The notes under the pieces: model-generated
Told to the model about the DNA's origin: nothing
The model's input: only the letters and a program-made list of their open reading frames with translations
The model's database searches: none
Position numbers and translations under genes: made by a program
In this document: positions 13,966 through 62,197 of the stretch, one piece after another
Layout of the letters: each line of letters begins with the position of its first letter
Position numbering within the stretch: position 1 is the stretch's first letter
NCBI GenBank assembly: GCA_040388625.1
Contig: JAZKBK010000005.1
Coordinates: 347,478-411,477 of the forward strand
Source: Gemmatimonadota bacterium
GTDB taxonomy: Bacteria > Gemmatimonadota > Gemmatimonadetes > Gemmatimonadales > Gemmatimonadaceae
DNA: 64,000 nucleotides
Direction: 5' to 3'

Positions 13966-14814
13966 ATGCGTGGACTGTTCTGTGGCACCGTAGCGGTTGT
14001 CGGAGTGCTGGGTTGTGCTGCGTCTTCCCCTCCATCAAGTGGACACACCAGTGCGACCAGCTCGACCACCGAACCGGCGCTCGTCCGCGTCGTGGCTCAC
14101 GACTTCGCCTTCGACAGCGCGCATAGCGTGCCGGCGGGGCTCGTCGCCATTCGCGTCGTGAACAGTGGTCGCGCCATCCACATGCTCGGCATCGCGCGTC
14201 TGGACTCCGGCAAGACTGTGCCAGACGTCTATCAGGCACTCGTCAAGAATGGATCCCTGGATTGGTTCAATGAGGTGGGGGGACCAGGCGCCGTCTCACC
14301 CGGGGATAGCGTGACGCAGTACGCGGTGCTCGAGCCAGGCAGCTATTCGATGATCTGCTGGTGGCCCGACTCTACCGGCAAGGCGCACGTGATGCTCGGA
14401 ATGATGTCGACGCTCACGGTGACTGGCGAGACTGCAGGTGCCCCGATCGAGCCGACTCCCGACATTTACCTTCGGGAGCGCGACTACCACATCGCCGCGA
14501 CCGGTGCGTTCACCGCCGGACACCACGTGTTTCGAGTGGACAACGATGGACCGCAGCATCACGACGTTGCAATCCTGCGAGTACTTCCGGGGAAGACCGA
14601 CGCCGAAGTAGATAAGTGGCTCATGAACCCCAGCGTGAACAACGCGCCCGTTGAAGCAGTCGGCGGCACGGTTGGCATAGCGCGATGGGGGCACACGGAG
14701 TTTGCGGCCGATCTCAAACCCGGGAGTTATCTCATGCTCTGCCTGATCCCCGACGCGAAGGATCGCAAGCCGCACTTCATGCACGGGATGGTGACGAAGG
14801 TATCGGTGACGTAA
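13966..14814 (+). CDS. Lipoprotein with two cupredoxin-like domains
   Basis: 282 residues. The signal peptide MRGLFCGTVAVVGVLGC ends in a lipobox Cys, then a Ser/Thr linker. Two repeats of a beta-sandwich resembling the plastocyanin/sulfocyanin-like class follow: LVRVVAHDFAFDSAHSVPAGLVAIRVVNSG with a late EPGSYSMICWW, and a second unit ending KPGSYLMLCLIPD. Each has the Cys-containing strand and a following Met/His-rich stretch (KPHFMHGM), but a full type 1 copper set is not obvious, so copper binding is uncertain. The start at 13966 follows GAGGTTGGAG; an ATG 12 bases upstream is the alternative. It is convergent with mscS across a REP copy. Confidence 0.7.
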   Translation: MRGLFCGTVAVVGVLGCAASSPPSSGHTSATSSTTEPALVRVVAHDFAFDSAHSVPAGLVAIRVVNSGRAIHMLGIARLDSGKTVPDVYQALVKNGSLDWFNEVGGPGAVSPGDSVTQYAVLEPGSYSMICWWPDSTGKAHVMLGMMSTLTVTGETAGAPIEPTPDIYLRERDYHIAATGAFTAGHHVFRVDNDGPQHHDVAILRVLPGKTDAEVDKWLMNPSVNNAPVEAVGGTVGIARWGHTEFAADLKPGSYLMLCLIPDAKDRKPHFMHGMVTKVSVT

Positions 14815-42205: not shown

Positions 42206-42461
42206 GGGCAATCGAAAACCGGAGGATGGAGTGAAGGCGGCAAATGTGGTGGGCGCTTCGCCCGTATGCAATACTGCCGCTCCGGCATCAGAGGTCAGCC
42301 CGCTTGACACTCGCCTCCTCTATGCCAACATTCCCACGGTGCGTTTGGGGCGCCCGCGGGTCCACGCGAAGGACTGAGTCCTCCCTGATCTGAATAACCG
42401 TTGCACGGCAGTTTCCGTGCTGGCCCGCTTGTGGACCGCTGGCACTCAGCATGGAGGCCAT

Positions 42462-44030
42462 ATGTCCCACCATCAGCTCCCCGAGCGGCCGAATCTCGAC
42501 CAGCTCAAGCGGCAGGCGAAAGATCTCCTGCACGCCGTGCGGCAACACGATGCCGCCGCCCTCACCCGCGCACACGCGCTCCCCGCATTCACCTCGCAGC
42601 CCGATGACGCTGTCACAAGCGCATTCGCACTGCACGATGCGCAATCGGTCGTCGCGCGCGAGCTCGGCTTCGTGTCGTGGAATGATCTCCGCGAAAACGT
42701 GGAGTCGATCACGCTCGACTTTACCGCTGCGGTCGAGGAGTTCATCGCCGCCGCAACCGGTCGTCGTCGTGTCCGCGCCGAACGCGTGCTCGACATGCAT
42801 CCGCGCATCGCGCACGCCAACTTCCACACCGCATTACTACTGGGCGACGCCGCAACCGTCGACTCGCATCTAACACGCGATCCCGCGCTCGCCACCACGC
42901 TCGGCGGTCCGCGCGGCTGGCAACCGCTGCATTACGTCTGCTTCACAGCAGTCGGCGCGGCAAACCCCGAGCGCGAACTGGGTCTCGTCGCCATCGCACG
43001 GCAACTCATCGCCCTCGGCGCCGACCCCGATCTCCGCTTTCCATGGGAGCATCACGGGGTACATCGCCCCGTGCTGTGGGGCGCGGTAGCCGTCGTGCAT
43101 TCGCTCCCGCTCGCGCGAGCGCTGCTCGAGGGCGGTGCAAATCCCAGCGATGGCGTCACGTTGACGCTCGAGGCGAGTGGCCGCGATGTCGCAGCGCTCG
43201 AGCTGCTGAACGAGTTCGGTGTCGATCCGAACGGTCCGTGGGCGACCGACGGATCGACGGCGCTCTACGCGTTGCTGCACTGGGCCGACAGCGTGGATGG
43301 CGCGCTCTGGCTACTCGCACATGACGCGGAGCCCGACGCGGTGTTCTCGCAGAATGGCGAGACTCCGCTACATGTCGCGGCGGCCCGCTGGGGAGTCGAT
43401 CTCGTCGAAGCGCTGGCGAGTCGCGGGGCGATGATCGACCGGCGCCGGTCCGATGGTCGCACACCGTACGCCGTAGCGATGCTGAGCGGCAACGACGCGG
43501 TTGCGGAATGGTTCCGCGCGCACGGCGCAGATACCGATGTGGCGCAAGTCGACCAGATGATTGCCGCAGGAAGTCGTGGCGACGTCGCAACGGTGAATGC
43601 GATGCTTGCGGCGCATCCCGCATTGCGCAGCGAGATCGGCCCGCAACATTATCCGGCACTTTACCGGGCGGCCGACCAGAATGACGTCGAGGCACTCGAG
43701 GGATTGCTCGCGTGCGGCCTCGATGTCGACGCGGGCGATGAAGCGATGAACATGAACGCACTGCACAAGGCGGCGATGGCTGGATGGCCCGACGCTGTCC
43801 GCGTGTTGCTCGCACACGGCGCGTCGGTGTCGGCGCGCGATCGCGAGTTTCACGCGACGGCGCTGGTCTGCGCGGCGGAAGGTTCGCGGCATGCCGCGCC
43901 GGGCACCGATCACGCAGCGGTGGGGCGCATGCTTCTGGACGCCGGATCCCCGACGAACTGGACATCGAGCGACGAGCCGTCGGAAGGAATTCTGGAAATC
44001 ATTACTGCGTGGGCTACTTCAAACGGGTAA
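42462..44030 (+). CDS. Ankyrin-repeat protein
   Basis: 522 residues with no signal peptide. The N-terminal 80 residues (PERPNLDQLKRQAKDLLHAV ... ELGFVSWNDLRENVES) are the conserved lead-in seen in a family of soil-bacterial ankyrin proteins. At least eight ankyrin-type units follow, for example NFHTALLLGDAATVDSHLTRDPAL, ETPLHVAAARWGVDLVEALASRGAMID and NALHKAAMAGWPDAVRVLLAHGASV. It is probably cytoplasmic and acts through protein binding. GGAGG lies six bases upstream of the ATG. A possible stem-loop (TCCTGCG with CGCAGGA, 44049-44078) follows the gene. Confidence 0.85.
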   Translation: MSHHQLPERPNLDQLKRQAKDLLHAVRQHDAAALTRAHALPAFTSQPDDAVTSAFALHDAQSVVARELGFVSWNDLRENVESITLDFTAAVEEFIAAATGRRRVRAERVLDMHPRIAHANFHTALLLGDAATVDSHLTRDPALATTLGGPRGWQPLHYVCFTAVGAANPERELGLVAIARQLIALGADPDLRFPWEHHGVHRPVLWGAVAVVHSLPLARALLEGGANPSDGVTLTLEASGRDVAALELLNEFGVDPNGPWATDGSTALYALLHWADSVDGALWLLAHDAEPDAVFSQNGETPLHVAAARWGVDLVEALASRGAMIDRRRSDGRTPYAVAMLSGNDAVAEWFRAHGADTDVAQVDQMIAAGSRGDVATVNAMLAAHPALRSEIGPQHYPALYRAADQNDVEALEGLLACGLDVDAGDEAMNMNALHKAAMAGWPDAVRVLLAHGASVSARDREFHATALVCAAEGSRHAAPGTDHAAVGRMLLDAGSPTNWTSSDEPSEGILEIITAWATSNG

Positions 44031-44193: not shown

Positions 44194-44222
44194 TGTCGGA
44201 TCGGGGCAAGTCTGTTCGTTGT
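44194..44222 (+). promoter_or_regulatory. ECF42-type promoter upstream of the secreted protein gene
   Basis: TGTCGGA (44194-44200), a 16-base spacer and CGTTGT (44217-44222) lie about 52 bases ahead of the ATG. The same boxes and spacing recur at 45004-45032, and the flanks also agree (TGTCGGATCG ... CGTTGTAG). A TGTCGA-like −35 has been reported for ECF42 sigma factors. Confidence 0.65.
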
Positions 44223-44273
44223 AGTGGTGAGACTGATTGGAACACCACGCCCCACTACGAGGAGAACAGACCA

Positions 44274-44972
44274 ATGCAGCGAACCAGGATCCGCTCGATC
44301 GCAATCAACACGATCGCAGTACTCGCCGTGCTCGGCGCGGCGAATTCAGCGAGGGCGCAGGGCGGCGCGACGACGTATCCGCGCATGGCTCCGGTCGAGC
44401 AGTATCTAATGGACCGGACCGCGGAGATCGCGCTGGCGCGCACCGCAGCGCCGGCCTCCATCTCACGCGACGCGGCGGTGCTGGTGCTCGGTCGTCACGG
44501 CTTCGAGACCGCGGTCGCGGGGAAGAACGGCTTCGTCTGCTTCGTTGATCGTGGATGGAGCTCCGCGCCCGATCCCGACTTCTGGAATCCGAAAGTGCGC
44601 GTTCCACAGTGTGAGAACGCACCGAGCGCGCAGTCGCATCTTCCAATTATTCTGAAGCGAGCGGCGCTGGCGCTGGCGGGACGGACGAAGGATCAAGTGG
44701 AGAAGGCCACGACGACGGCCATCGCCACGAAGGAGCTGCCGCCGATGGCGCCCGGCGCGATGTGCTACATGATGTCGAAGCAGGGATACGCCGGCGACAG
44801 CAGCAAGCACTGGCCGTCGCACATCATGTTCTTCTATTCGCATTTCGATCCGGCCAATTGGGGAGCGAATCTGCCGGGGTCCCCGGTGCTCGGGATGGAA
44901 GACACGGTCAACCACCTGACGGGGTTCGCGATTCCCGTGCAGCACTGGTCGGATGGAACGCCCGCCCGCTGA
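44274..44972 (+). CDS. Secreted protein of unknown family, ECF42 module member
   Basis: 232 residues with a signal peptide (MQRTRIRSIAINTIAVLAVL, ending near ARAQ). The mature part shares long blocks with the protein at 60809-61594: TYPRMAPVEQYLMDRTAEIA, LARTAAPASISRDAAVLVLG, GFETAVAGKNGFVCFVDRGW and FWNPKVRVPQCENA, then GAMCYMMSKQGY and WSDGT near the end. Two Cys (in GFVCFV and PQCEN) are conserved between the two, so a disulfide is possible outside the cytoplasm. No enzyme motif was recognised. GAGGAGAA precedes the ATG. It is the first gene of the plus-strand module and has its own sigma-type promoter. Confidence 0.8.
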   Translation: MQRTRIRSIAINTIAVLAVLGAANSARAQGGATTYPRMAPVEQYLMDRTAEIALARTAAPASISRDAAVLVLGRHGFETAVAGKNGFVCFVDRGWSSAPDPDFWNPKVRVPQCENAPSAQSHLPIILKRAALALAGRTKDQVEKATTTAIATKELPPMAPGAMCYMMSKQGYAGDSSKHWPSHIMFFYSHFDPANWGANLPGSPVLGMEDTVNHLTGFAIPVQHWSDGTPAR

Positions 44973-45003
44973 GCGGAGCTGCGCAGCGAGATTTCGGGAG
45001 TGT

Positions 45004-45032
45004 TGTCGGATCGAGGGCGGTCCGTACGTTGT
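45004..45032 (+). promoter_or_regulatory. ECF42-type promoter upstream of the DGPF gene
   Basis: TGTCGGA (45004-45010), 16-base spacer, CGTTGT (45027-45032), 49 bases ahead of the DGPF start codon. It also serves the sigma gene, which overlaps the end of the DGPF gene, so the sigma factor would drive its own synthesis. Confidence 0.65.
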
Positions 45033-45080: not shown

Positions 45081-45416
45081 ATGCATTATCTGCTTTCCGT
45101 GATCGCCGAGGGTGCCAGTCTCGCTGACGACGCCGAGATGGCTGCGATCGACGTCTTCAACGAGCGACTCCAGGCGAATGGTCACTGGGTCTTCGCTGGC
45201 GGGCTCGGCACCCCGGACACGGCCACCGTGATCGACAACCGCCGCGGCGAGGAAGTGTTCACCGACGGGCCGTTCGTGGAGTCGAAGGAATACCTCGCCG
45301 GCTTCTGGATCATCGACGCGTCCGATCTCGACGTCGCGCTCAAGCTCGCCGCCGCGGGCTCCAAGGCGTGCAATCGCAAGGTCGAGGTTCGGCCGTTCCT
45401 TTCCAACCCTGAGTGA
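45081..45416 (+). CDS. DGPF/YCII-family protein, ECF42 partner
   Basis: 111 residues: MHYLLSVIAEGASLADDAEM, the YCII/DGPF core VFAGGLGTPDTATVID and the motif EVFTDGPFVESKEYLAGFWI that names the DGPF group. Proteins of this fold are small ferredoxin-like dimers; their function is unknown, but they are the standard genomic partner and target of ECF42 sigma factors. AGGAG lies ahead of the ATG at 45081. The stop TGA shares one base with the sigma factor's ATG, giving translational coupling. Confidence 0.9.
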   Translation: MHYLLSVIAEGASLADDAEMAAIDVFNERLQANGHWVFAGGLGTPDTATVIDNRRGEEVFTDGPFVESKEYLAGFWIIDASDLDVALKLAAAGSKACNRKVEVRPFLSNPE

Positions 45417-46639
45417 TGGACGTCCAGGAAGCGATCACGCGCGCGCACCACGAGGAGTGGGCCCGCGTGGTCGCCGCCCTGGCGAAGCGCTTCGGCAATC
45501 TCGACGTCGCCGAAGAAGCAGCGGCCGAGGCATTCGCGACCGCGGTCGTGAGGTGGCCGTCGGACGGCGTACCTCCAAATCCAGGCGCGTGGCTGATGAC
45601 CGCGGCCAATCGCAAAGCCATCGACTGGATCCGACGCGAGAACAAGCGCGACGGCAAGCAGAGAGAGGCGCAGATGCTCTACATCGACGACGAGCCCGAG
45701 CCGCTCGATGCGATCGGGGACGAACGGCTGCGGTTGATCTTCACCTGCTGCCATCCGGCGCTCTCGATGGAGGCGCGCGTCGCGCTCACGCTGCGCATGG
45801 CAGGCGGGCTGACGGTGGCGGAGATCGCTCGCGCCTTCTTCGTGCAGGAGACCGCGATGGGGCAGCGGATCACGCGCGCGAAGGGGAAGATCCGCGTCGC
45901 TCGCATACCATATCGCACGCCATCGGTGGAGGATCTTCCCGGGCGGGTCTCTGGAATACTCGCCGTGCTGTTCCTCGTCTTCAACGAAGGCTACCTGGCG
46001 ACGGGACCCGACGCCGATCCGATCCGTCCTGCGCTCACCGCCGAGGCGATCCGGCTCACGCGGCTCGTGCACGTGCTCATGCCAGACGACGGCGAGGTGG
46101 CCGGACTGCTCGCGTTGATGCTGCTCATCGAGGCACGCAGGACGACGCGAGTTTCCGAGCGTGGCGAGCTGGTCCCGCTCGGAGAGCAGGATCGTGCGAG
46201 CTGGGATGCGGCGATGATCGCCGAGGGACATCGATTGGTGCGCGAGCGACTGGCTTCCGGCGTGGCTCCGGGGCGCTACCAGATACACGCGGCGATCAAC
46301 ACGGTGCACACCTCCGTCCGACACGTGCGGGATACTGACTGGTCGCAGATCGTCGCGCTGTACGATCAGCTCGCTCGCATCGATCCGTCGCCGGTCGTCA
46401 CGCTGAACCGCGCCATCGCGGTCGCCGAGGTCGATGGGCCGCGAGCGGCGCTCGCGATCGTCGACATGCTCGATGACACGCTCGCCGGCTATCACGCCTA
46501 CCATGCGACACGCGCCGACCTGCTGCGGCGGCTGGGATCGATGCCGGAGGCGCGCGCGGCGTACGACAGGGCGATCGAGCTCTCGGGGAACGCGGCCGAG
46601 AGCGCGTACCTCGCGCGTCGACGCGAAACGTTGGAGTAG
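45416..46639 (+). CDS. ECF42 sigma factor with TPR-like C-terminal extension
   Basis: 407 residues. Region 2 is in HHEEWARVVAALAKRFGNLD ... EEAAAEAFATAVVRWPSDGVPPNPGAWLMTAANRKAIDW; region 4 is in LRLIFTCCHPALSMEARVALTLRMAGGLTVAEIARAFFVQETAMGQRITRAKGKI. A long helical extension (DUF6596, TPR-like) follows with VLFLVFNEGY, SGVAPGRYQIHAAINTVH and a final RADLLRRLGSMPEARAAYDRAIELSG. In studied ECF42 proteins the extension is needed for activity, and no anti-sigma factor is present, as here. It is coupled to the DGPF gene and is probably self-activating. Confidence 0.95.
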   Translation: MDVQEAITRAHHEEWARVVAALAKRFGNLDVAEEAAAEAFATAVVRWPSDGVPPNPGAWLMTAANRKAIDWIRRENKRDGKQREAQMLYIDDEPEPLDAIGDERLRLIFTCCHPALSMEARVALTLRMAGGLTVAEIARAFFVQETAMGQRITRAKGKIRVARIPYRTPSVEDLPGRVSGILAVLFLVFNEGYLATGPDADPIRPALTAEAIRLTRLVHVLMPDDGEVAGLLALMLLIEARRTTRVSERGELVPLGEQDRASWDAAMIAEGHRLVRERLASGVAPGRYQIHAAINTVHTSVRHVRDTDWSQIVALYDQLARIDPSPVVTLNRAIAVAEVDGPRAALAIVDMLDDTLAGYHAYHATRADLLRRLGSMPEARAAYDRAIELSGNAAESAYLARRRETLE

Positions 46640-46895: not shown

Positions 46896-47843
46896 TCATG
46901 GGACATGATTCCGGCGTCGAGCTGATACTGGCTGCCTTGCCGAATCAGCAGCGGTGCGCTCCTTCGCAAGTTGTGCCTCGAAACTTTTGCGTGCGTCCTT
47001 CGCGACAGCGCGGCATCCCGCGCGATCCACCAGTGCATCAGCGTCGCCCTGCTCGCGCCTGGTCACGCGTTCCCAGAAATTCACCACGCCGGGATGCGGA
47101 GCGAGCGGGATGTCGCAAGGCAGTGCCGCGACCATCGCGAAGCTGTACTCGAAATCCTTGACGATGTCCGGGTACTTCGGGTTGTCGATCAACTTGTAAC
47201 CAGGCGCCGACACGCTGCCGATATCGACCATATGCAGACAGCGCTCGCCCTCGCATGACGTCCACGTCCAGGTCGTGTTGCCTCTGGTGTGGCCCGGTGT
47301 CGAGTGAGCAGTCAGTACCAGGTCGCCCACGCGTATAGTCTCGCCATCACTGACCGTGCGCGCGACATGGACCGGCGGAAACGGCAATCTGTCGCCGTAC
47401 TGCGGATCGTCGTGACCGCCGCGCGCCAGCAAGGCGGTATCAGCGGCGTTCGCGATCACCTGCGCGCCAGTGGCCAGAGCGAGTTGTGCGATGCTGCCCG
47501 CGTGATCGCAATGCGCGTGCGAATTGAGGATCCATTTGATGTCGTGGAGATCGATCCCCAGCTCCCGGAGATTCGCTTCGACCAGTGCGCCGTCGGTGGG
47601 CACTCCGCCGTCGATCAGAACATCACCCGTACTCGTTTTTACGAGCAGCACGGTGATGCCACGAGGTCCTACATACCAGGTGTTGCCGTAGATCTGAAAC
47701 GGCTTCTGCGGAGCCGTCCACGAAGGATCGCTCGCGCATGACAACACGCTCGCAGCATTCGCCGGCTGTGCGGATGGAGTCTGTGCATACGTACTCGGCG
47801 CGATCAGGCTGGCAATGAGAATCGCGGATATCGACAAGCGCAT
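46896..47843 (-). CDS. Subclass B3 metallo-beta-lactamase
   Basis: 315 residues with signal peptide MRLSISAILIASLIAPSTYAQ; the start at 47843 lies just outside the REP pair. The zinc motif is NSHAHCDHAG (His-x-His-x-Asp-His), His in TPGHTRGNTTW and His in LAPHPGVVNFWERV. The spacing and the C-terminal RREQGDADALVDRAGCRAVA block fit subclass B3. It should be a periplasmic enzyme able to hydrolyse beta-lactams including carbapenems; soil B3 enzymes vary in activity. Related MBL-fold hydrolases with other roles are the alternative. It is monocistronic. Confidence 0.85.
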   Translation of the reverse strand: MRLSISAILIASLIAPSTYAQTPSAQPANAASVLSCASDPSWTAPQKPFQIYGNTWYVGPRGITVLLVKTSTGDVLIDGGVPTDGALVEANLRELGIDLHDIKWILNSHAHCDHAGSIAQLALATGAQVIANAADTALLARGGHDDPQYGDRLPFPPVHVARTVSDGETIRVGDLVLTAHSTPGHTRGNTTWTWTSCEGERCLHMVDIGSVSAPGYKLIDNPKYPDIVKDFEYSFAMVAALPCDIPLAPHPGVVNFWERVTRREQGDADALVDRAGCRAVAKDARKSFEAQLAKERTAADSARQPVSARRRNHVP

Positions 47844-47850
47844 TGTGGAA

Positions 47851-47955
47851 AAACCGGGGTCAGAGTCCAATTTCGGGAAAACCGGGGTCAGAGTCCAGTT
47901 TCGTGCCACCAGGCGCTGGAACCCAGGAGAAAAAATGCACTCCGACCCCTGTTTC
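47851..47955. repeat. REP-like half copy followed by a diverged full copy
   Basis: AAACCGGGGTCAGAGTCCAA occurs twice in tandem (47851 and 47879); the second copy continues to a right arm GCACTCCGACCCCTGTTT. The pair lies immediately upstream of the beta-lactamase start codon, so it is in or near that gene's promoter region. Confidence 0.75.
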
Positions 47956-59368: not shown

Positions 59369-60649
59369 CTAAATCGATGGGGCGGCTTCTTCCGTCTCCT
59401 TGAGTCTGCGCGCCAACAGCATCTGCTCTCGACGGTTCTGCGTCAGAGCGATGGCGCGCTGGATTTCCTTCCCTGCCTCGGCGAATCTGCCCAGTTTCAT
59501 GAGCAGGTCTCCTCGAACGCTGGGAAAGAGGTGATAGGAAGCCAGCGCAGTGTCGGAAAGGCCTGCCGCGATGGAATCGAGTGCATTCAGCCCTGCAGCT
59601 GGACCGTAGGCCATACCTACAGCAACTGCGCGATTGAGTCCTACGACGGGAGACGGATTGACGTCGAGCAAGTTGTGATAGAGGAACACGATGCGTTCCC
59701 AATCGGTCTCGTCGGCGGTGCGGGCACGCATGTGACAAGCGGCTATTGCCGCCTGCAACGCATAGTTTCCGGCACCCCCGCCGAGCCGTTCAGCGCGTTC
59801 GAGCGCGGCCATGCCACGCTGAACCTGCGCGCGGTCCCAGAGCGAACGATCCTGATCCGGAAGCAATACCGGCTCACCGTCGCTTCCCACGCGAGCCGCA
59901 GCGCGCGAGGCGTTCAGTTCCATCAAGGCCAGAAGCGCGTGAACTTCAGATTCGTCCGGCAGAAGCTGCGCAAGAAGCCATCCGAGCCGCAACGCCTCGG
60001 CGGAGAGTTCTGATCGCATCCACTCCGCGCCTGATGTCGCTGTGTAACCTTCGTTGAAAATCAGGTACACTACTGACAGTACTGACTTCAGCCTGCGTTT
60101 CAGCTCATCACCACGCGGCGTCTCGAAGGGTACCCGGGCGTTGGATAGCGCCTTCTTGGCGCGGGAAATCCGTTGTCCCATCGTCTTCTCGGTGACCAGC
60201 AGTGCGCGGGCAGTCTCAGCGGTAGAGAGACCACCAAGCAAGCGCAGGGTAAGTGCAACGCGGCCCTCGACCGGCAGCACAGGATGGCACGCGGTGAAGA
60301 TGAGCCGGAGTACGTCGTCGTCGATGACCTGATCGAGAGCCTGATCCATCGCCTCACAGAGCCGCTGCTGCTGCCATTCAATGTCTCGGGTAATCTCCTC
60401 GTGCTTCTGCGCAATCATCCGTCCACGACGCAGACCGTCGATGGCTCGCCGCTTCGCCGCTATCATCAGCCACGCAGCGGGATTCTCGGGAATACCCTCA
60501 TGCGGCCACCGCTCAAATGCCAGAACCAGCGCGTCCTGCGCCAATTCCTCGGCAATGCTGATGTCGCCGGTGACGCGGGCAATCGCAGAAATGAGCCGAC
60601 TTGCCTCGATCTTCCAGACGGCCTCTATCGTCCCCTGAACATCGCCCAT
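59369..60649 (-). CDS. ECF42 sigma factor with TPR-like C-terminal extension, second copy
   Basis: 426 residues from ATG 60649. Region 2: ASRLISAIARVTGDISIAEE then LAQDALVLAFERWPHEGIPENPAAWLMIAAKRRAIDGLRRG; region 4: LRLIFTACHPVLPVEGRVALTLRLLGGLSTAETARALLVTEKTMGQRISRAKKAL. The DUF6596/TPR-like part has VVYLIFNEGY, ALLALMELNASRAAARVGSD and a final DLLMKLGRFAEAGKEIQRAIALT. Same design as the copy at 45416, with clear divergence. It is downstream of the DGPF and secreted-protein genes on the minus strand, about 160 bases after the latter. The upstream alternative start is a TTG with no support. Confidence 0.95.
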   Translation of the reverse strand: MGDVQGTIEAVWKIEASRLISAIARVTGDISIAEELAQDALVLAFERWPHEGIPENPAAWLMIAAKRRAIDGLRRGRMIAQKHEEITRDIEWQQQRLCEAMDQALDQVIDDDVLRLIFTACHPVLPVEGRVALTLRLLGGLSTAETARALLVTEKTMGQRISRAKKALSNARVPFETPRGDELKRRLKSVLSVVYLIFNEGYTATSGAEWMRSELSAEALRLGWLLAQLLPDESEVHALLALMELNASRAAARVGSDGEPVLLPDQDRSLWDRAQVQRGMAALERAERLGGGAGNYALQAAIAACHMRARTADETDWERIVFLYHNLLDVNPSPVVGLNRAVAVGMAYGPAAGLNALDSIAAGLSDTALASYHLFPSVRGDLLMKLGRFAEAGKEIQRAIALTQNRREQMLLARRLKETEEAAPSI

Positions 60650-60808: not shown

Positions 60809-61594
60809 TCATTCATGTTGCGCGCTTGCTTGCGCGTTTGCTTGCGCGTTTGCTTGCGCGTTTGCAAGCGTTCCGTCGGACCATGTCGATTGCGCTACCA
60901 GGAACACGAGAATGGGCGGCAGCTCACTGACTCGAGTTTCCTTTTTCGGAGCGAAGAACCAGTACGCGCTGGACATCACCGGCGATCCTGCCGCTCCCGA
61001 TCCCCAGTCTCCAGCGTCTCGAACGAGCGTGTAGAACATGAGATGCGGCATATTGTGGCCGCCGCGATCGGTAAGGTATGAGGATTTGGACATCATGTAG
61101 TCCATTGCCCCGTTTTCGAGCGCCGGCAGTTGTCTCTTCCTGTATGCGGTATTCAGTGCAGACAAGATCTCCTGCCTGGAGCGACCGGCCAGGACCATTC
61201 GGGCGCGCAGAGTCACGATGGGCACGATCGAGCGCGCGGCTTGCGGGTTGAGACAATCAGCGGCCTTAACGTTGGGGTTCCAGAATTCATCCCAATCGAA
61301 TGCCGCGCCCCATGCTCTCCCCACGAAGCAGACGAAGCCGTTTTTCCCGTGGACCGCTGTCTCATATCCGCCCGGCCCCAGAACCAGCACCGTCGCGTCG
61401 CGGGATATCGACTCCGGCGCCGCACTTCGCGCCAAGGCGATCTCCGCGCTTCGGTCCATCAGATACTCTTTGACGGGCGCCATCTTCGGATAGCGCGTCT
61501 CGACATTCTGTGCCCTTGCCGTGCGCGCCCCGCCGAGCAAGACCAGCAGTGCGAGAGACTTGAAACCGATTGCGCCGACGCCGTTTTCGCGCAT
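60809..61594 (-). CDS. Secreted protein of unknown family, second ECF42 module member
   Basis: 261 residues. GGAGGG seven bases upstream and a signal peptide (VGAIGFKSLALLVLLGGART, ending ARAQ) fix the start at 61594. It is homologous to the protein at 44274-44972: RYPKMAPVKEYLMDRSAEIA, LARSAAPESISRDATVLVLG, GYETAVHGKNGFVCFVGRAW, FWNPNVKAADCLNP, GAMDYMMSKSSY and a final WSDGT. Two Cys are shared. Near the C-terminus four or so NAQA/SAQ units form a low-complexity tail. No known domain was recognised. It probably acts outside the cytoplasm as output of the ECF42 response. Confidence 0.8.
   Translation of the reverse strand: MRENGVGAIGFKSLALLVLLGGARTARAQNVETRYPKMAPVKEYLMDRSAEIALARSAAPESISRDATVLVLGPGGYETAVHGKNGFVCFVGRAWGAAFDWDEFWNPNVKAADCLNPQAARSIVPIVTLRARMVLAGRSRQEILSALNTAYRKRQLPALENGAMDYMMSKSSYLTDRGGHNMPHLMFYTLVRDAGDWGSGAAGSPVMSSAYWFFAPKKETRVSELPPILVFLVAQSTWSDGTLANAQANAQANAQASAQHE
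60821..60868. repeat. Tandem 12-base repeat encoding NAQA units
   Basis: CTTGCGCGTTTG is repeated three times exactly with partial units at either side, within the last codons of the secreted protein gene. On the coding strand it gives (NAQA)n. The in-frame 12-base unit can expand or contract without frameshift. Confidence 0.8.
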
Positions 61595-61757: not shown

Positions 61758-62117
61758 TCAGCCCTTTTCGGGAGCGGGCACGAAGAAGATCTCCCGCACC
61801 TCGGCCGGCATGGACACGCCGCACAAACTGGCAGCCCTGAGCGCCCAGGCACGTACCTCGTCCAGGTCGGCACACTCCCAGATCGACAATCCGCCTACGT
61901 GTTCCTTGGCCTCCAGATATGGCCCGTCGGTAAGAAGCAGCTCCCCGTCGGGCTGTGTCCGGAGCGTGTGGGCCGCGCCGAGACCGCAGGCAAACTTCGT
62001 CACGCCGGCAGCGTCCAATTCCCTGTTGAACGCGTGAATTCCCTCTACTGCTGCTTCGTCGATAGTCGACGGATCGAAGTTGTCGGGGAAGTACGTCGAA
62101 ACCAGATATTGCGGCAT
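61758..62117 (-). CDS. DGPF/YCII-family protein, second ECF42 partner
   Basis: 119 residues: PQYLVSTYFPDNFDPSTIDEAAVEGIHAFNRELDAAGVTKFACGLG and LLLTDGPYLEAKEHVGGLSIWECADLDEVRAWALRAA. DGPY replaces DGPF, and EAKEHVGGL follows as in the family. AGGAGACGAC lies directly upstream of the ATG. It is the first gene of the minus-strand module: DGPF, then secreted protein (163 bases on), then sigma factor. An ECF42-type promoter lies about 50 bases upstream. Confidence 0.9.
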   Translation of the reverse strand: MPQYLVSTYFPDNFDPSTIDEAAVEGIHAFNRELDAAGVTKFACGLGAAHTLRTQPDGELLLTDGPYLEAKEHVGGLSIWECADLDEVRAWALRAASLCGVSMPAEVREIFFVPAPEKG

Positions 62118-62168: not shown

Positions 62169-62197
62169 ACGACGAACGGCCAGACCGGATTTCTACA
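62169..62197 (-). promoter_or_regulatory. ECF42-type promoter of the second DGPF gene
   Basis: On the minus strand TGTAGAA, a 16-base spacer, then CGTCGT, 52 bases ahead of the start codon. It matches the two promoters of the other module in spacing and in most bases (TGTCGGA-N16-CGTTGT), with variation that may reflect a different sigma factor. Confidence 0.5.

Follow-up and report, generated by a model that had tools for sequence, protein, structure and literature searches.

Putative ECF42-dependent promoters in front of an exported-protein gene and of DGPF genes in a Gemmatimonadota genome

Two ECF42 modules

ECF42 is a widespread group of sigma factors, and the window, which is the whole stretch of 64,000 nt of DNA that was analyzed, contains two modules with a gene for such a factor on opposite strands. 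Module 1 is on the plus strand in the order exported protein-DGPF-sigma. It encodes an exported protein of 232 amino acids (positions 44274 to 44972; signal peptide ending with ARA-Q as judged by eye), a DGPF (YCII-related) protein of 111 amino acids (45081 to 45416, PF03795), and the ECF42 sigma factor (45416 to 46639), the start of which overlaps the DGPF stop as TGATG. Module 2 is on the minus strand and differs in the order: the DGPF gene (61758 to 62117, PF03795) is followed by a paralogue of the exported-protein gene (60809 to 61594; 48 to 49% identical) and the ECF42 sigma factor gene (59369 to 60649). Both sigma factors are longer than 400 amino acids and matched Sigma70_r2 (PF04542), Sigma70_r4_2 (PF08281), and, in the C-terminal extension, DUF6596 (PF20239) above the cut-off, with no match to TPR repeats in either of them. 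The neighboring PF03795 gene in both modules agrees with the gene neighborhood of the ECF42 group, and no anti-sigma domain was present among the scanned module proteins.

The same strand carries, upstream of module 1, a gene for an ankyrin-repeat protein (42417 to 44030). A gene for a metallo-beta-lactamase superfamily protein (46899 to 47909, minus strand, PF00753, signal peptide by eye) is convergent with module 1.

Three sites upstream of the module genes

The site “P1” at positions 44194 to 44222 (plus strand), about 160 nt downstream of the end of the ankyrin-repeat gene, precedes the exported-protein gene, and “P2” at 45004 to 45032 (plus strand) is an internal site that precedes the DGPF gene of module 1. 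Both read TGTCGGA-N16-CGTTGT. An earlier note on this DNA had described two sites 810 bases apart with the same −35, spacer length, −10, and flanks, and this is exact: the offset is 810 bases, the spacer has 16 nt in both cases, and the flanks TGTCGGATCG and CGTTGTAG are identical in P1 and P2. The third site named there, TGTAGAA-N16-CGTCGT or “P3,” is present at 62169 to 62197 on the minus strand, in front of module 2. The gap between the end of the −10 motif and the ATG is 51 nt for P1, 48 nt for P2, and again 51 nt for P3. With TGTCGGA-N16-CGTT in P1 and P2 and TGTAGAA-N16-CGTC in P3, all three sites have a TGTCGA-like −35 and a CG(A/T)C-like −10 motif within a spacing of 16 to 17 nt, while the ECF41-type −35 motif TGTCACA is in none of them. 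An ECF42 motif of its own was not found for the exported-protein paralogue of module 2, which stands behind the DGPF gene. Sigma-70-type promoters were detected in neither module 1 nor module 2, and terminator-like sites in both modules occurred at the shuffle level only.

Identity of P1 and P2 extends to 19 of the 40 upstream bases (about 48%) and 10 of the 16 spacer bases. Because of these common bases, P1 and P2 may have arisen by copying from a single ancestral promoter and not be two independent observations.

Chance expectation and scoring of the sites

The pattern of P1 and P2 had a mean of 0.04 matches, and never two, over 100 dinucleotide-shuffled versions of the window. Scaled from these shuffles to 3.84 Mb, about 2.4 matches would be expected in the genome, and a total of three was found, P1 and P2 being two of them. 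The third is located inside a cysteine-synthase-like open reading frame and was, for this reason, taken as a chance match. With about as many matches expected by chance as were found and one of them inside a coding gene, the pattern alone is no proof of a regulon. A literature search gave no match to the motif string.

The tighter pattern TGTMGR-N14-GTWCGTYGT, which spans all three sites, matched the genome perfectly at exactly three places, P1, P2, and P3. Lengthening the spacer of the TGTMGR-type pattern by one base, as a spacing control, gave background only, and the total of the one-mismatch matches of the tighter pattern was not above that of the reversed-pattern control.

The training set of a matrix consisted of 17 sites outside this genome, two of them from S. 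meliloti; they had been chosen with a motif expression and included related species, so that the counts are not independent events. On this held-out scale, P3 scored 27.1, P1 22.7, and P2 14.5, which are ranks 1, 2, and 4 of 127,944 window positions; the best score among 12 simulated windows was 13.4. Ranks 3 and 5 (window positions 13998 and 3266) are inside coding open reading frames. A sequence-only covariance model gave E-values of 0.005 for P3, 0.02 for P1, and 1.4 for P2, the latter at rank 10. Since its matrix and covariance scores are the lowest, P2 is the weakest of the three sites on sequence alone. In the whole genome, the covariance-model search recovered only P3 among the known sites and is too weak for listing a regulon.

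Orthologous loci in the same family

A locus from another genus of the same family (G100), with proteins that are 91 to 92% identical, contains P1 in unchanged form. About 42 consecutive bases that include the site are identical, in contrast to the diverged sequence farther upstream. About 57 nt are missing there, P2 included, so that no ECF42-type promoter other than P1 was found ahead of the genes for the exported protein, the DGPF protein, and the sigma factor. In a second genome of the family (G132), the orthologous DGPF gene (71% identity) has the site cGTCGGA-N16-CGTAGT immediately 5', and its leader resembles the P2 leader. The simplest reading of this distribution would be that the DGPF gene first had P2 as its promoter, that P1 and the exported-protein gene arrived upstream later, and that G100 lost P2. 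Three loci from family relatives (L127, L130, and L132) carry the motif as TGTCGATCCG...CCGTTCGTW before a dihydrofolate-reductase-like or RibD-type gene (named by eye) located upstream of DGPF genes.

The motif in three phyla and the exported-protein family

The motif was also evaluated at 80 loci with exported-protein homologues from species genomes of Acidobacteriota, Gemmatimonadota, Rhodanobacter/Dyella, and a few others, plus the family relatives, by searching for TGT[CA]G[AG]-N16/17-CG[AT][CT] within 200 nt upstream. Among 61 DGPF upstream regions, 13 had the motif with a 16-nt and 28 with a 17-nt spacer; for 111 exported-protein upstream regions, these numbers were 2 and 13, and the reversed control gave 0 in both sets. 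Other spacer lengths were mostly near background, with peaks at 13 and 20 nt that are mostly due to the CGT that is repeated within CGTTCGTCGT and represent the same sites. The motif is situated 5' of most DGPF genes and of many exported-protein homologues in Acidobacteriota, Gemmatimonadota, and Rhodanobacter/Dyella, sometimes more than about 4 kb away from any sigma gene. When a fixed pattern modeled on S. meliloti was used for the upstream regions, most of this signal escaped detection because the −10 motif varies. The TGTAGA variant of P3 recurs before the DGPF genes of two other loci (L025 and L027).

At the seven Rhodanobacter/Dyella loci, TGTCGATTTC...GTTCGTC or a near copy is positioned 75 to 139 nt before the exported-protein gene. 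This motif is conserved while the DNA farther upstream is variable, and there is no ECF42 gene in these loci but one or two elsewhere in each genome.

An own site is present for 15 of the 111 exported-protein genes, one of which (L045) looks accidental, and 17 others stand behind a gene with a site. Most of the 111, namely 64, have neither a site nor ECF42 or DGPF neighbors, so that ECF42 control is not common to the whole family. The third of the three copies in the genome studied here (L011, positions 1477 to 2187) is without an ECF42-type site and without an ECF42 neighbor, and most Acidobacteriota homologues are likewise not linked to ECF42; the family thus also has another mode of regulation.

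The family itself gave no match in Pfam for any member of a 60-sequence alignment, none in NCBIfam for the two copies of the window, and none for its profile among the PDB sequences. Its invariant residues include C89, C113, and H183. An AlphaFold2 model had a mean pLDDT of 88.8 and a pTM of 0.82, so the fold is predicted with confidence; comparison of the protein with PDB and BFVD by Foldseek and VIA-align yielded nothing convincing (best VIA Z of 2.6), which is no proof of a new fold. No relative was found on viral contigs and plasmids.

Motif-defined regulon of the genome

The genome possesses six ECF42 genes, and each module has a version of the motif upstream of its DGPF gene, with TGTCGR, TGTAGA, or CGTCGA as the −35 motif. 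The modules (L004 to L009) differ mainly in the −10 motif, which is CGTTGT, CGTCGT, CGACGT, CGACTA/T, or CGTCAT, and this suggests separate specificities. Outside these modules, TGTCGATTTCGTATCCGTTCGTTCGACGT precedes a DoxX-like gene with a DGPF gene behind it (L190, positions 1501 to 2409; G000:C2:6237-7145). This site (C2:6237) is one of four one-mismatch matches, is located 71 nt before the DoxX-like gene, and has the −10 motif CGACGT of the L005 module. None of the six ECF42 genes is near this DoxX-DGPF operon, which is likely an unlinked member of the ECF42 regulon. As predicted from the motif, the regulon is composed of the six ECF42 modules and the DoxX-DGPF operon. The search pattern TGTCGGA-N16-CGT[TC]GT, intended by the earlier note for listing the regulon, would have missed it.

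Interpretation of the sites

With high probability, P1 and P2 are promoters for the ECF42 sigma factor of the gene just downstream, in a positive feedback operon with an exported output, and the same should hold for P3 and module 2. The sigma factor (45416 to 46639) would be activated by a signal through its C-terminal extension, as has been proposed for the ECF42 group (PMC8999054). RNA polymerase with the active sigma factor would start at P1, transcribe the exported-protein gene, and by read-through also the DGPF and sigma genes, with P2 as a second entry for DGPF and sigma. The sigma factor would raise the levels of the exported protein, the DGPF protein, and itself, and P3 would play the same role for module 2. 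Directly visible are the sites with their position and conservation and the agreement with mapped ECF42 promoters; we infer that the promoters are used, how the six sigma paralogues are matched to the sites, the read-through from P1, the role of the exported protein, and the signal.

The conclusion in the earlier note that the exported-protein gene is in the ECF42 regulon needs to be separated from the argument given for it. The likeness of P1 and P2 is a weaker argument than was stated, because both may stem from one ancestral promoter that was copied and because the 13-base pattern occurs about twice per genome by chance. It is the comparative evidence, not the match of two sites alone, that supports the regulon claim. 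A chance match of P1 and P2, for which this expected number and the genomic match inside a coding sequence would speak, has nevertheless next to no probability, given that both sites stand 48 to 51 nt before two neighboring genes of the same ECF42 module, are accompanied by conservation across genera, and reach their ranks with the held-out matrix. Hardly more probable are operators for a repressor or an activator instead of sigma factor promoters. Such operators would fit with the extended conservation, which in some lineages comprises bases of the spacer, but the sites are bipartite and not palindromic, keep a fixed spacing of 16 to 17 nt and a fixed distance to the starts, and match mapped ECF42 promoters.

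A duplicated short promoter-leader segment may be the only reason for the similarity of P1 and P2, with just one of them being active. The bases shared upstream and in the spacer, the absence of P2 from G100, and its score below that of P1 are in agreement with this, but P1 is conserved to G100 and G132 has an intact version at the P2 position, so both positions are used somewhere; this reading is unlikely. Somewhat better, although still doubtful, are the prospects of cross-talk, in which the sites are ECF42 promoters read by different or several ECF42 paralogues and the modules form one network instead of separate loops. Six ECF42 genes and versions of one motif in all six modules would allow this, whereas the −10 versions differ by module, and the DoxX-DGPF operon shares its version with one module only. 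P1 and P2 are very probably true switches that respond to ECF42, a stress-type sigma factor, and in other bacteria such switches recur in front of the exported family.

The unnamed exported family may be a recurrent direct output of ECF42 in three phyla and an extracytoplasmic arm of the ECF42/DGPF system, with a potential role in sensing the inducer or acting on it, which is put forward as a tentative proposal with less than even chances. The family gains a likely regulator and so becomes open to study. A short specific motif that lists its targets gives a handle on the role of ECF42, as does the recurrence of an exported protein among these targets in Acidobacteriota, Gemmatimonadota, and Rhodanobacter, with culturable Rhodanobacter species as test hosts. 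Six paralogous modules with slightly different promoters in one genome make the promoter specificity of the paralogues testable.

Comparison with known ECF systems

RpoE10 of Sinorhizobium meliloti is an ECF42 sigma factor with promoters for which the transcription starts have been mapped: ACGATGTCGGATCGGTTGCGGCTGGTGCGTCATCG, which contains TGTCGGATCG as do P1 and P2 and has the form TGTCGGATCG...CGTCAT, and two with TGTCGGC-N16-CGTC (PMC6180224). The agreement with the reported ECF42 −35 motif, which the earlier note had claimed, is borne out by these promoters (PMC6180224). They share with P1 and P2 the −35 motif TGTCGG and the 16-nt gap, but the −10 motif is CGTC in S. meliloti and CGTTGT in P1 and P2 (PMC6180224). 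As here, the ECF42 gene of S. meliloti adjoins a YCII-related gene and targets are also situated away from the sigma locus; unlike here, the targets are conserved hypothetical and glyoxalase-like proteins (PMC6180224). Over-expression of RpoE10 did not reveal autoregulation of its operon (PMC6180224). The ECF41 promoters of S. meliloti RpoE9 are similar with a TGTCA-type −35 and a CGTC −10 motif, but the −35 motif is TGTCACA and not TGTCGGA, and the sigma factor extension is SnoaL-like and not DUF6596 (PMC6180224).

The ECF42 sigma/DGPF modules of Streptomyces venezuelae (Liu et al. 2018, cited in PMC8999054) have in common with those described here a DGPF gene together with the ECF42 gene, a long C-terminal extension of the sigma factor, and the promoter type. 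Their motif is reportedly TGTCGA and CG(A/T)C. Compared to these modules, the operon described here adds an exported protein with its own ECF42-type promoter. The promoter set is thus an ordinary one for ECF42, and the less ordinary part is its target, an exported family without a Pfam, an NCBIfam, or a clear PDB match.
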